DNA of 64,000 nt from the NCBI GenBank assembly GCA_902619485.1, contig CACNEF010000002.1:1-64000 (forward strand), written 5' to 3'. The stretch comes from an uncultured SAR116 cluster alpha proteobacterium (GTDB lineage: Bacteria; Pseudomonadota; Alphaproteobacteria; Puniceispirillales; Marisalimonadaceae). The notes under the pieces were generated by a model. The model saw only the letters and a program-made list of their open reading frames with translations. It ran no database searches and was not told where the DNA came from. Of this stretch, positions 11,116 through 63,710 are shown piece by piece. Numbering within the stretch: the first letter of the stretch is position 1; every line of letters starts with the position of its first letter. Position numbers and translations under genes: made by a program.

Positions 11116-11250
11116 AAATTAAACCATTGTAATAATGATGTTATATAAGCACAAATAGCTAAAAATTAATATTTATTATTTTAATATTTATTGTTTTTTT
11201 TAATAAAATTATGGGTTAATAGTAATATTAAAAGTTAAGGAGTTTGCAAA

Positions 11251-12219
11251 ATAATTTTTAAATATATTATACCCTTTATAATACTTTTTAGTTTAACTTT
11301 AATAATATCTATGAATACAAATCAGGTAAAATTTTCAAGCGATTTTAATCCAAATTTTATCGGGTCTAATATAAATGAATATTTAAAAAAAACAGAAGAA
11401 CAATTTTTAGATATTAAAGAAGGAGTAGAAAAAAAAGTAATTTGGGCTAATAAAAGCAACAAAAAAACTCCGATTGCAATAGTCTATATCCATGGCTTTA
11501 CGGCTTCCTCAAAAGAAGTTCGTCCTCTTCCCGACAAAATTGCTAGTGATTTAAGTGCAAATCTTTTCTTCACAAGGTTAACAGGTCACGGAAGAAATCC
11601 AAAGGCAATGGAATTATGTTCAATTCCAAATTGGATAAAAGATCTTCACGAAGCAATTGAAATTGGCTCAAAAATTGGTGATAAAGTTATTTTAATGTCC
11701 TCTTCAACTGGTGGAACAATAAGTTCAACTTCTGCTCTAGATAGAAAAATTTCAGAGAAAATTTTGGGATATATATTTTTATCACCTAATTTTGGAATAA
11801 ATAATAAATTTGCAAGCTTGATTTCGTGGCCGTTTTCTCAATATTGGTTAAAATTAATTCTTGGCAAGACAATGAAACATAATCCAAGAAATAATCTTAA
11901 TAAAAAATATTGGACAATGTCATATCCAACAAATGCTCTCATTCCAATGGCTAAGTTAGTAAAGGAAGTAAATAACAGAGATTTCAGTAAAGTGAATAAA
12001 CCTGCACTCTTTTATTTTTCAATGGATGACAAAGTAGTGGATCCTAAAAAAATAAAAAATTTTATATCTAATTGGGGAGGAAAAAGCACAACAAAAATCG
12101 TTAAACTTTCAAATAGCGATGATAAATATTCGCATGTATTAGCTGGTGATATTATCTCTCCTAATCAGACCGAACATGCAAAAAAAACAATTATAACTTG
12201 GATTAAAAATTTAAAATAA
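11251..12219 (+). CDS. alpha/beta hydrolase with N-terminal signal anchor (probable ATA start)
   Basis: This alpha/beta-hydrolase-fold protein shows an oxyanion region VYIHGFTASS, a TGHGR loop, nucleophile elbow SSSTGGT, Asp region SMDDKVVDP and His region DKYSHVLAGD. The elbow is S-x-S-x-G instead of the usual G-x-S-x-G. The track starts at ATG 11311, which has no ribosome binding site. AAGGAG (11237-11242) lies 8 bases before ATA 11251, and the 20 codons from there to 11311 are in frame and encode a Lys followed by a long hydrophobic stretch (IIPFIILFSLTLIIS). That looks like a signal peptide or anchor. The frame is closed upstream by TAA (11236) and contains no ATG/GTG/TTG before 11311. 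I place the start at 11251 (322 residues); ATT 11254 is an alternative. Confidence 0.75.
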   Translation: MIFKYIIPFIILFSLTLIISMNTNQVKFSSDFNPNFIGSNINEYLKKTEEQFLDIKEGVEKKVIWANKSNKKTPIAIVYIHGFTASSKEVRPLPDKIASDLSANLFFTRLTGHGRNPKAMELCSIPNWIKDLHEAIEIGSKIGDKVILMSSSTGGTISSTSALDRKISEKILGYIFLSPNFGINNKFASLISWPFSQYWLKLILGKTMKHNPRNNLNKKYWTMSYPTNALIPMAKLVKEVNNRDFSKVNKPALFYFSMDDKVVDPKKIKNFISNWGGKSTTKIVKLSNSDDKYSHVLAGDIISPNQTEHAKKTIITWIKNLK

Positions 12220-60347: not shown

Positions 60348-61081
60348 TTAATCGTTTCTGAAATTATTTTACGCATTTTTAATATTGAATTTTCTAACCC
60401 GTCAAAAATAGAATTAGCTATTATAAAATGTCCTATATTCAATTCCACAATATCATTTATCGACACAATCGAACTTACATTATCATAGGTTAAACCGTGA
60501 CCGGCATGACAATTTAAACCCAATTTATTTGCAAAAGCAGTGCTTTCAGTAATTTTTTTTAATTCTAATTCAACATTATTTTTATTTATGAAGGCATTTG
60601 CGTAACTACCAGTATGAAACTCGATTGTTTTAACACCCAATTTTTGAGTGGCAATTAATTGATCTTTATCTGGATCAATAAAAATGGCTACGTTTATATT
60701 AATTTTAGAGAATGATTTAAGAATTTTTTTTAATTTATCAAAATTATTTACTACATCTAAACCACCCTCTGTAGTAATTTCTTGTCGCTTTTCTGGAACA
60801 AAGCATACACATTTAGGCTTATATTGAATCGCAATATTGGCCATTTCTGAGTTTGCTGCAATTTCAAGATTAACAGGAATATTAATTACATTCAAAATAT
60901 CGCCTAAATCCTTTTCATTAACATGTCTCCTATCTTCTCTTACATGAACAGTTACTAAATCTGCGCCTGATTTTTCAACAATTTTTGCTGCTTCTGTAAC
61001 GTCTGGATAATTTTCTCCACGAGCATTCCTCAATGTCGCAACGTGATCAATATTTATACCTAACCTAACATATCTTTTCAT
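60344..61081 (-). CDS. pdxJ: pyridoxine 5'-phosphate synthase
   Basis: PdxJ condenses DXP and 3-amino-1-hydroxyacetone phosphate to pyridoxine 5'-phosphate, so it draws on the same DXP pool as Dxr. The 245-residue TIM barrel starts RLGINIDHVATLRNARGENYPD, then HVREDRRHVNEKDL, CFVPEKRQEITTEGGLDV, FIDPDKDQL, EFHTGSYA and NCHAGHGLTYDNV. Its ATG overlaps the stop of the DUF2062 gene by one base (TAATG) with AAAGG upstream. Confidence 0.97.
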   Translation of the reverse strand: MKRYVRLGINIDHVATLRNARGENYPDVTEAAKIVEKSGADLVTVHVREDRRHVNEKDLGDILNVINIPVNLEIAANSEMANIAIQYKPKCVCFVPEKRQEITTEGGLDVVNNFDKLKKILKSFSKININVAIFIDPDKDQLIATQKLGVKTIEFHTGSYANAFINKNNVELELKKITESTAFANKLGLNCHAGHGLTYDNVSSIVSINDIVELNIGHFIIANSIFDGLENSILKMRKIISETIK

Positions 61082-61578
61082 TACAATAGCCTTTTGTTTT
61101 TTTTATTTCTTCTTTTCTTGAACGAAGCAATAAAACTATAAATAACATAGTAAGTTATTATCCAAACTAATGGCGCTATAATAATGCCACCTACAAGCAT
61201 TGGGAAAAAAATCTCATAAGTTTGGTTTAATATCATGTCAAAATTTATTTCATGAGTTATTTTCTGTAAGTTAATATTTGTGAGATAAGTGCCAATTTTA
61301 TAAATTAATCCCCAAATGAATGGAAAAGTTATAGGATTTCCAACTACTGTTCCAATCAATGCAGCTATAAAGTTTCCCCTTATCAAGTAAGCAAAAATTA
61401 CAGCTAAAACAAAATGAAGTCCAAGAAGAGGTGTAAAAGAAACTGTAGCCCCGCATGCAAAGCCTGAGGAGATAGCATAATTAGAGTCAGGCAAACGAGC
61501 TAATCTTAATTTATAATAAGATATTATTCTTTTAACCCTACTTAATAAATTTCTGTAATATAAACTAAAATTAATTAT
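61081..61578 (-). CDS. DUF2062 membrane protein (probable ATA start)
   Basis: This is a DUF2062 family inner-membrane protein with about three helices. The core GFACGATVSFTPLLGLHFVLA is followed by GNFIAALIGTVVGNPITFPFIWGL and a late helix (IIAPLVWIITYYVIYSF). The track starts at TTG 61494, inside the conserved RLPDS motif, with no ribosome binding site. The frame stays open upstream and encodes SRVKRIISYYKLRLARLPDS, the expected basic N-terminus of this family, back to GGTGGAG, which lies 7 bases before ATA 61578. No ATG, GTG or TTG occurs in between, so I start at ATA (165 residues); ATT 61575 is the alternative. The gene sits between spoT and pdxJ. Function is unknown. Confidence 0.72.
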   Translation of the reverse strand: MINFSLYYRNLLSRVKRIISYYKLRLARLPDSNYAISSGFACGATVSFTPLLGLHFVLAVIFAYLIRGNFIAALIGTVVGNPITFPFIWGLIYKIGTYLTNINLQKITHEINFDMILNQTYEIFFPMLVGGIIIAPLVWIITYYVIYSFIASFKKRRNKKNKRLL

Positions 61579-61592
61579 AAAAAAACTCCACC

Positions 61593-63710
61593 TTAATCCT
61601 TACCTCTTTTTACACTTTCTACAAAATGAGACAATCTTATTGCTGCAATTATTTGATTTAAATGACTTAAATTTCTAACTTCTAAATCAATATTAAATTT
61701 ATAAAAATCTAAGTCTCTTGAAACCACTTGAATATTAGATATATTTCCTTCATTTAAACTTATTATTTTAGTAACGTCTGCTAGACTTCCAGGCTCGTTT
61801 GACAAAACTGTTACCAGACTGCCTTTATGAAAAGATTCACCCTCTCTTTCCCATGAAATTTCAAGCCATACCTCAGGCATATCATTAAATTTCTCTAGTG
61901 CAAAACAATCTAAAGCATGAACAGTAATCCCTTTTCCGGTAGTTACAATTCCAACAATCCGTTCACCCGGCAGTGGGTGACAACAATGTGCATAATGTGT
62001 AGCCATCCCAGAAATCAAACCCTTGATTTTCATAGTTTCTTGTAAATGTGGTTTTTTTAATATTGGTAAATTTTTTTTTAAATTTTCTTTTTTTGGATAT
62101 AAGAAGTTTAACACATCTCTAGATTTTATGTTTCCTTTTCCTATCTCAATCAGCAATTCTTCCAAGTCAGAAAGATTAAACGCATTAATTACTTTAATTA
62201 AACTTTTTTCATGCATTCTTTTATTTTGTTGTCTATATTCTTTTTGCAATAATGCAGTTCCTAATTGCAAAAATTCTTTTATCTCTCTATTTCTAATGAA
62301 TCTTTTTATTGCTGATTTAGCCTTTCCAGTAATACATATTTCTATCCATTTTGGATCTGGAAATCCACTTTTAGAAGTTAAAATTTCTACTTGATCACCA
62401 TTTCTAATTTCTGTTGTTATCAATCTATTCTTGTTATTTATTTTTGCACCCACTGCAGAATTACCAATTTCAGAATGAACAGCGTATGAGAAATCAATTG
62501 CGTTTGCTCCTTTTGGTAAAATTATTAAATTCCCCTTTGGCGTAAAACAAAAAATTTGGTCATTATACATTTCTAATTTTGTATTTTCTAAAAATTCTTC
62601 AGGCTCACTACTTTCTTCAATAATTTGAATTAATTCTCTAACCCACTTATATTTTACACCTTCAGACCATTTTTTTCCCTCTTTGTAAATCCAGTGTGCC
62701 GCAACTCCATTAAGAGCAAATTCATTCATAATTGAGGTTCTTATTTGCACTTCTATTCTTGTTTTCTTGGGGCCAATTAAGCTTGAATGAAGCGATTGAT
62801 AGCCATTTCTTTTTGGAGCAGAAATATAATCCTTAAAACGTCCCATTATTGCAGTATATTCTTGATGCAATAATCCAAGACTTTTATAACAGCTAGGTAC
62901 ATCATCTACAATAACTCTGAATGCCATTATATCAGACAATTGGTCCATACTTAAATTTTTATATTGCATTTTTTTCCAAATTGAATAACTGCTTTTAATT
63001 CTACCAGTTACATGACATTTGATGTCATTTTTTCTTAAAAGAGTTTCAATTTCATTAGTAATGTATGGGATATTTAATTCATCTTGTGAATATATCAATT
63101 TTAGACGTTTTAATATTGAATCACGTGTTTCTGGTTTCAAAACGGCAAAACATCTATCTTCTAATTCTCTCTGTATAGCATTAATTCCTAGACGTTCAGC
63201 TAGTGGAGCAAAAATCTCTAAGGTCTCAAAACAAATTTTAGACCTTTTTGTAGCGTTTTTAATGCCATCAATCGTTCTAATATTATGCAATCTGTCAGCT
63301 AATTTTACTAACAAAACCCTTATGTCATCAGAAGATGCCAACAAAAGCTTTCGAAAATTTTCAGCTTGAGCAAATCCAAATTTTAAATCTAATTTTGAAA
63401 GTTTAGTTACTCCGTCAACAAGTTTTGATATTTCAGACCCAAATTCATCGTCAATATCTTTTAGAGTAAATTCGCTATCTTCAACTACATCATGTAGCAG
63501 TGCTGTTATAATAGTAGAGGAGTCTAATCTCATATTAACTAAATAATCAGCTACGGCTAAAGGATGAGTGAAATAAGCTTCACCACTACCTCGAAATTGA
63601 TTAGCATGTGCTTTTTTTGATAAATTATATGCTTTCTCAATTGTTTTTAATGAAACAAAGTTGTCATATTTAGATACTTTTTTGTAGAGATGTGATGCTG
63701 TAATGATCAT
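61593..63710 (-). CDS. spoT: bifunctional (p)ppGpp synthetase/hydrolase SpoT/Rel
   Basis: This long RSH enzyme makes and degrades the stringent-response alarmones. The 705-residue protein has the HD hydrolase domain (FTHPLAVADYL, ITALLHDVVEDSEF, about residues 47-78), the synthetase domain with RLHNIRTIDGI, DIMAFRVIVDD and GRFKDYISAPKRNGYQSLHSSL, a TGS domain (FCFTPKGNLIILPKGANAIDFSYAVHSEIG), a conserved Cys-containing CC helix region (ATHYAHCCHPLPGERIVGIVT) and a C-terminal ACT domain (LSNEPGSLADVTKIISLNEGNISNI). The RFKD motif is of the bifunctional type. It lies 62 bases after the rpoZ-like gene. Confidence 0.97.
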   Translation of the reverse strand: MIITASHLYKKVSKYDNFVSLKTIEKAYNLSKKAHANQFRGSGEAYFTHPLAVADYLVNMRLDSSTIITALLHDVVEDSEFTLKDIDDEFGSEISKLVDGVTKLSKLDLKFGFAQAENFRKLLLASSDDIRVLLVKLADRLHNIRTIDGIKNATKRSKICFETLEIFAPLAERLGINAIQRELEDRCFAVLKPETRDSILKRLKLIYSQDELNIPYITNEIETLLRKNDIKCHVTGRIKSSYSIWKKMQYKNLSMDQLSDIMAFRVIVDDVPSCYKSLGLLHQEYTAIMGRFKDYISAPKRNGYQSLHSSLIGPKKTRIEVQIRTSIMNEFALNGVAAHWIYKEGKKWSEGVKYKWVRELIQIIEESSEPEEFLENTKLEMYNDQIFCFTPKGNLIILPKGANAIDFSYAVHSEIGNSAVGAKINNKNRLITTEIRNGDQVEILTSKSGFPDPKWIEICITGKAKSAIKRFIRNREIKEFLQLGTALLQKEYRQQNKRMHEKSLIKVINAFNLSDLEELLIEIGKGNIKSRDVLNFLYPKKENLKKNLPILKKPHLQETMKIKGLISGMATHYAHCCHPLPGERIVGIVTTGKGITVHALDCFALEKFNDMPEVWLEISWEREGESFHKGSLVTVLSNEPGSLADVTKIISLNEGNISNIQVVSRDLDFYKFNIDLEVRNLSHLNQIIAAIRLSHFVESVKRGKD

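Follow-up and report, generated by a model that had tools for sequence, protein, structure and literature searches.

A conserved AUA codon is the probable start of the DUF2062 gene downstream of spoT in a genus of the SAR116 clade

The gene of IF3, infC, begins with AUU in Escherichia coli and with ATC in Streptomyces, and through these starts IF3 regulates its own synthesis (PMC5472188). In Staphylococcus aureus, the infC start is AUA, and conserved AUA and AUU starts of this species were found, with reporters and ribosome profiling, to yield about 10-30% of the output of AUG (PMC13009471). IF3 also represses Streptomyces sigR, which has a GTC start (PMC5472188), and in a reconstituted system it keeps out weak pairs formed by the third base of the codon (PMC10158994). 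An AUU start has furthermore been attributed to E. coli pcnB (Binns and Masters 2002, as cited in PMC13009471).

The window analysed here is a stretch of 64,000 nucleotides from a genome of 1.62 Mb in 43 contigs, which is 78% complete and has a GC content of 31%; the relatives used for comparison are single-cell genomes and metagenome-assembled genomes of the SAR116 clade. On the minus strand, spoT (61593-63710) lies directly upstream of a gene coding for a small DUF2062 membrane protein (PF09835; 61081..61578, 165 amino acids if begun at ATA). Following the minus strand, the spoT stop TAA (61593..61595), 14 nt from the ATA, is succeeded by the Shine-Dalgarno (SD)-like motif TGGAG (61586..61590), a spacer of seven T (61579..61585), the inferred start ATA (61576..61578) and then ATT. 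The DUF2062 frame is open from directly past an in-frame TAA as far as the stop at 61081, and its first canonical start codon is a TTG (61492..61494), codon 29 from the ATA. A preliminary description of this DNA had reported an SD, seven bases and ATA-ATT just past the spoT stop, 28 codons from the ATA without ATG, GTG or TTG, and the TTG at 61494 as lying within a conserved motif; all of this is borne out by the letters, the motif being LARLPD.

The junction was aligned for 27 same-genus genomes that have the gene, and parsimony steps were counted per column on a tree of the DUF2062 genes. TGGAG is present in 25 of the 27 genomes, one having TGGGG, and its columns show 0, 0, 0, 1 and 0 steps. 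The seven spacer columns, by comparison, vary freely among relatives (4, 9, 5, 5, 4, 3 and 6 steps, 36 altogether), while the start-codon columns show 0, 0 and 2 steps, both from A to T. At the start site 23 genomes have ATA and two have ATT (L017, L022), so that 25 of the 27 keep one of these codons; L027 probably has TTG, with AGGA-N5-TTG in place of the lost TGGAG, L023 is unclear, and ATG was found at SD distance in none of the 27. Two relatives keep the ATA even at an SD-to-ATA distance of 5 or 6 nt. Frozen motif and codon columns around a free spacer are what would be expected if the two were a true SD and start, and the SD-ATA arrangement of DUF2062 exceeds chance. The codon is thus a noncanonical one, SD-spaced and in a frame that offers no usable canonical start, and AUA initiation in this gene, as proposed before, is well supported by the comparison of orthologues. 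The ATA-ATT pair is not a unit, since the codon after ATA varies in relatives (ATT, GTT, GTC, ATA, ATC, TTT, AAT), and the ATT shared with a second gene of the window is coincidental. Five relatives have an in-frame ATG 4 or 5 codons downstream, which is not SD-spaced, and the absence of ATG is in part accounted for by mutation bias at 31% GC. In TGGAG the T never varies, even though AGGAG would be the better pairing partner, and SD pairing gives no reason for it.

Three other ways of reading this junction were weighed against a start at ATA 61578. If translation began at TTG 61494 or at another downstream codon, with the preceding stretch untranslated, it would use the first canonical codon of the frame, and TTG is a usual start in this genome. 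We consider this very unlikely. The TTG has no SD in front and is absent in many relatives, two of which (L003 and L010) lack ATG, GTG and TTG altogether from the upstream stop to the conserved DUF2062 domain. It also sits inside that domain: the PF09835 match (122.7 bits against a curated cut-off of 27.4 in Pfam) begins at residue 17, and a start at TTG 61494 would therefore cut off the beginning of the domain. Moreover, codons 15-28, all of which precede the TTG, show 28, 16 and 55 steps at positions 1, 2 and 3, and with this third-position bias they evolve in the manner of coding DNA. Codons 2-14 (23, 56 and 48 steps) lack a coding bias, so the exact N-terminus is deduced from the SD geometry together with the frozen column of the ATA. 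Translation cannot come in from upstream in about ten relatives, because an in-frame TAA or TAG there stands immediately 5' of the start codon.

Alternatively, ribosomes might start at the RTG (GTG or ATG) of the sequence RTGGAG beside the spoT stop and shift frame into DUF2062. R, T and G are indeed kept in all 25 SD-bearing genomes, and in the window (GTG GAG TTT TTT T, then ATA) one base skipped at the run of seven T would suffice. However, the distance from RTG to ATA is 13 nt in most genomes but 11 in L014 and 12 in L026, where a TAA intervenes; some (L005, L011) have a TGA at codon 3 or 4, and neither a conserved slippery site nor a conserved SD before the RTG was seen, which makes this reading hardly credible. 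A base lost in the T run through faulty sequencing or assembly might also hide a GTG start, as GTG GAG TTT TTT ATA would fall in frame once one T is removed; an error of this sort is refuted by independently assembled relatives, which have the same ATA without the T run, and its probability is practically nil. A start at ATA 61578 is consequently the reading retained below. As a separate observation, the RTG (61589-61591 in the window, minus strand) is GTG in near and ATG in far relatives, adjoins or overlaps the spoT stop, and begins a short mini-ORF, out of frame and differing in length, in the 25 SD-bearing genomes.

In three other families (f2-f4) of the order, the orthologues carry an in-frame ATG close to the start of the domain, and the ATA at DUF2062 is therefore probably a derived state within this genus. 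Such a genus-wide switch from ATG to ATA would be a clean natural case for studying why selection retains weak starts. RNA structure near the DUF2062 start was not stronger than that of shuffled sequences (z 0.54). A reading of TATAAT as a promoter -10 element was dropped, since relatives do not conserve the first T of this hexamer. No DUF2062 match was present in four genomes of the same genus (G012, G013, G016 and G021, 88-99% complete), so the gene seems to have been lost from part of the genus.

The second gene of the window for which AUA initiation had been suggested codes for an alpha/beta hydrolase with a signal-peptide-like N-terminus (11251..12219, plus strand). Its geometry is as claimed, AAGGAG (11237-11242) followed by eight bases and ATA-ATT at 11251. 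In 15 near relatives GGAG-N8-ATA, usually with AAGGAG, is present with both GGAG and ATA invariant; the hydrolase of L034 has ATT where near relatives have ATA, and in a group farther removed the equivalent position holds ATC, ATT or ATA, ahead of a signal-peptide-like stretch. In two near relatives, L036 and L037, an in-frame TAA lies between the ATA and a conserved downstream ATG (11311 in the window), so that either translation of these hydrolases begins at that ATG or their signal peptide is gone. The case is weaker than that of DUF2062 because of these stops; the comparison gives AUA initiation moderate support, and the ATA is a probable start held with less certainty.

Two further genes behave alike. 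The infC gene of this genome (L166:4425-4958, own contig C25, minus strand) has an SD-spaced ATA, and ATA occupies the same place in 20 of 20 other loci of the order, seven from the same genus and 13 from other families (L126-L145). It is SD-spaced in 19 of them; the contig of L145 ends at the ATA, and the SD would fall outside it. Since same-genus loci and those of the sampled families outside it agree in ATA, AUA at infC appears to be ancestral in the order. The infC and DUF2062 starts are alike in having an SD, strong in infC, and a near-cognate AUH codon kept through evolution, but infC regulates itself, unlike DUF2062. A gene for a TRAP DctQ protein (L111:1414-1929, plus strand) has AAGGAG followed by ATT-ATC and no canonical start for 24 codons. 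In its relatives (L146-L153), ATT-ATC, once ATT-ATT, is kept together with the SD in 8 genomes, the SD being TGGAG or TGGGG in three of them. Genes of this behaviour are few: infC, DUF2062 and this one TRAP DctQ gene (ATT/ATC), to which the hydrolase at 11251 may be added with less certainty.

From the two ATA starts within one 64 kb window, it had been proposed that AUA or AUU initiation is tolerated in the lineage at large, possibly because the initiator tRNA, IF3 or the tRNA-Ile2/lysidine system is relaxed. On such a view, DUF2062 and the hydrolase would be two of many such genes. Whole-genome counts speak against it: AAGGAG-N6-8-ATA occurs 52 times versus 65 in the reversed control, without excess, as does AAGGAG-N6-8-TTA (73 versus 83), whereas AAGGAG-N6-8-ATG is in excess (44 versus 24). 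Among the first 30 AAGGAG-N-ATA sites of the whole genome, the hydrolase alone fits a gene start. A direct ORF scan for noncanonical starts over 820 kb of the genome gave ATA starts in DUF2062 and the hydrolase alone, plus the one ATT/ATC gene (TRAP DctQ), and a laxer scan over a larger set of contigs yielded infC and two doubtful sites in addition. In one ORF scan, a weak excess was observed (5 of 267 ATA codons versus 0.6% overall); the five are largely infC, DUF2062 and the hydrolase, and in two of them an ATG or GTG follows within a few codons. Codon-by-codon SD enrichment over the 820 kb gave no convincing signal for ATA. When the sequence ahead of first canonical starts was scanned for protein conservation, the hits were mostly noncoding similarity between close relatives, or overlaps; one lead was left, L094:18844, and it did not stand up.

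The decoding machinery also looks ordinary. The initiator tRNA is complete, ends in C1xA72 and has an anticodon stem of AU, GC and GC; the A29-U41 pair, versus the classical three G-C pairs, could be read in favour of relaxed start selection, but the other families that were sampled have the same stem. IF3 contains both domains, can be aligned from end to end with bacterial IF3s of solved structure, and is intact in an organism whose IF3 gene is itself under a near-cognate start. TilS matches well above the cut-off were obtained in most relatives, and none was found in the 78% complete genome of this organism. No lineage-specific change in initiator tRNA, IF3 or TilS was thus found, and the relaxation proposed in the preliminary description, machinery and lineage-wide tolerance alike, seems very improbable to us. 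The DUF2062 start is no evidence for changed decoding rules, and two AUA starts in a single window do not imply that start-codon rules changed; a tempting over-reading is hereby corrected.

Our reading, held with considerable confidence, is that DUF2062 starts at ATA 61578 and that this weak start is kept, most likely, for low, IF3-dependent synthesis. TGGAG, seven bases upstream, would position the ribosome at the ATA, probably assisted by ribosomes that end spoT 14 nt earlier, and the initiator fMet-tRNA would read AUA via a third-position mismatch. Selection in the genus would keep the start weak, most likely holding the membrane protein low, and the weak start would make its synthesis dependent on IF3, as for the ATA-start infC. 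Given the infC starts and the weak starts described in other species, a weak start particular to this gene, of the kind against which IF3 is known to discriminate, would be the most economical explanation. To our knowledge, DUF2062 membrane proteins have no link to initiation, and conserved AUA/AUU starts are rarely documented outside infC. In the literature searched, no paper was found that treats the function of DUF2062 in such a context or the start codons of SAR116; as far as found, a conserved near-cognate start in a gene without an earlier such report is new.

Compared with the described systems, sigR of Streptomyces is similar in that its noncanonical start is conserved in a genus and overlooked by annotation rules, but its codon is GTC rather than ATA, and the IF3 dependence demonstrated for sigR is inferred for DUF2062. 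According to the secondary account available, E. coli pcnB is likewise a chromosomal gene kept low by an inefficient near-cognate start; it is another gene with another codon (AUU), shown experimentally, whereas the DUF2062 start is deduced by comparison. S. aureus ccpN (AUA) and cvfC1 (AUU) also combine AUA or AUU with an SD, a strong one in their case, and are conserved in relatives, but they have extended SD pairing and measured output, while the SD of DUF2062 is a modest TGGAG beside an upstream stop (PMC13009471 for the S. aureus genes). In practice, gene callers limited to ATG, GTG and TTG would shorten or overlook the DUF2062 gene. A broader interpretation, which we regard as possible but rather doubtful, is that the genus keeps a small IF3-sensing set composed of infC, DUF2062, TRAP DctQ and the 11.25 kb hydrolase, to which DUF2062 was added from an ATG-start ancestor. 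If it were true, the IF3 level or translation state would adjust two membrane proteins together with an exported enzyme.

Two minor observations concern the genomes themselves. In seven relatives (G001, G002, G007, G009, G014, G016 and G018), the tilS match lies about 1.0 kb downstream of the beginning of its contig, which suggests a common assembly-breaking feature upstream of tilS. Besides the one complete initiator tRNA gene (629965-630041, own contig C1), the genome carries three 3'-end fragments of it (L216:7273, L216:11759 and L217:6234, corresponding to about 631273, 635759 and 722234 on C1). They resemble the attachment-site scars of elements that insert into tRNA-fMet genes, and multiple copies are likewise present in relatives.
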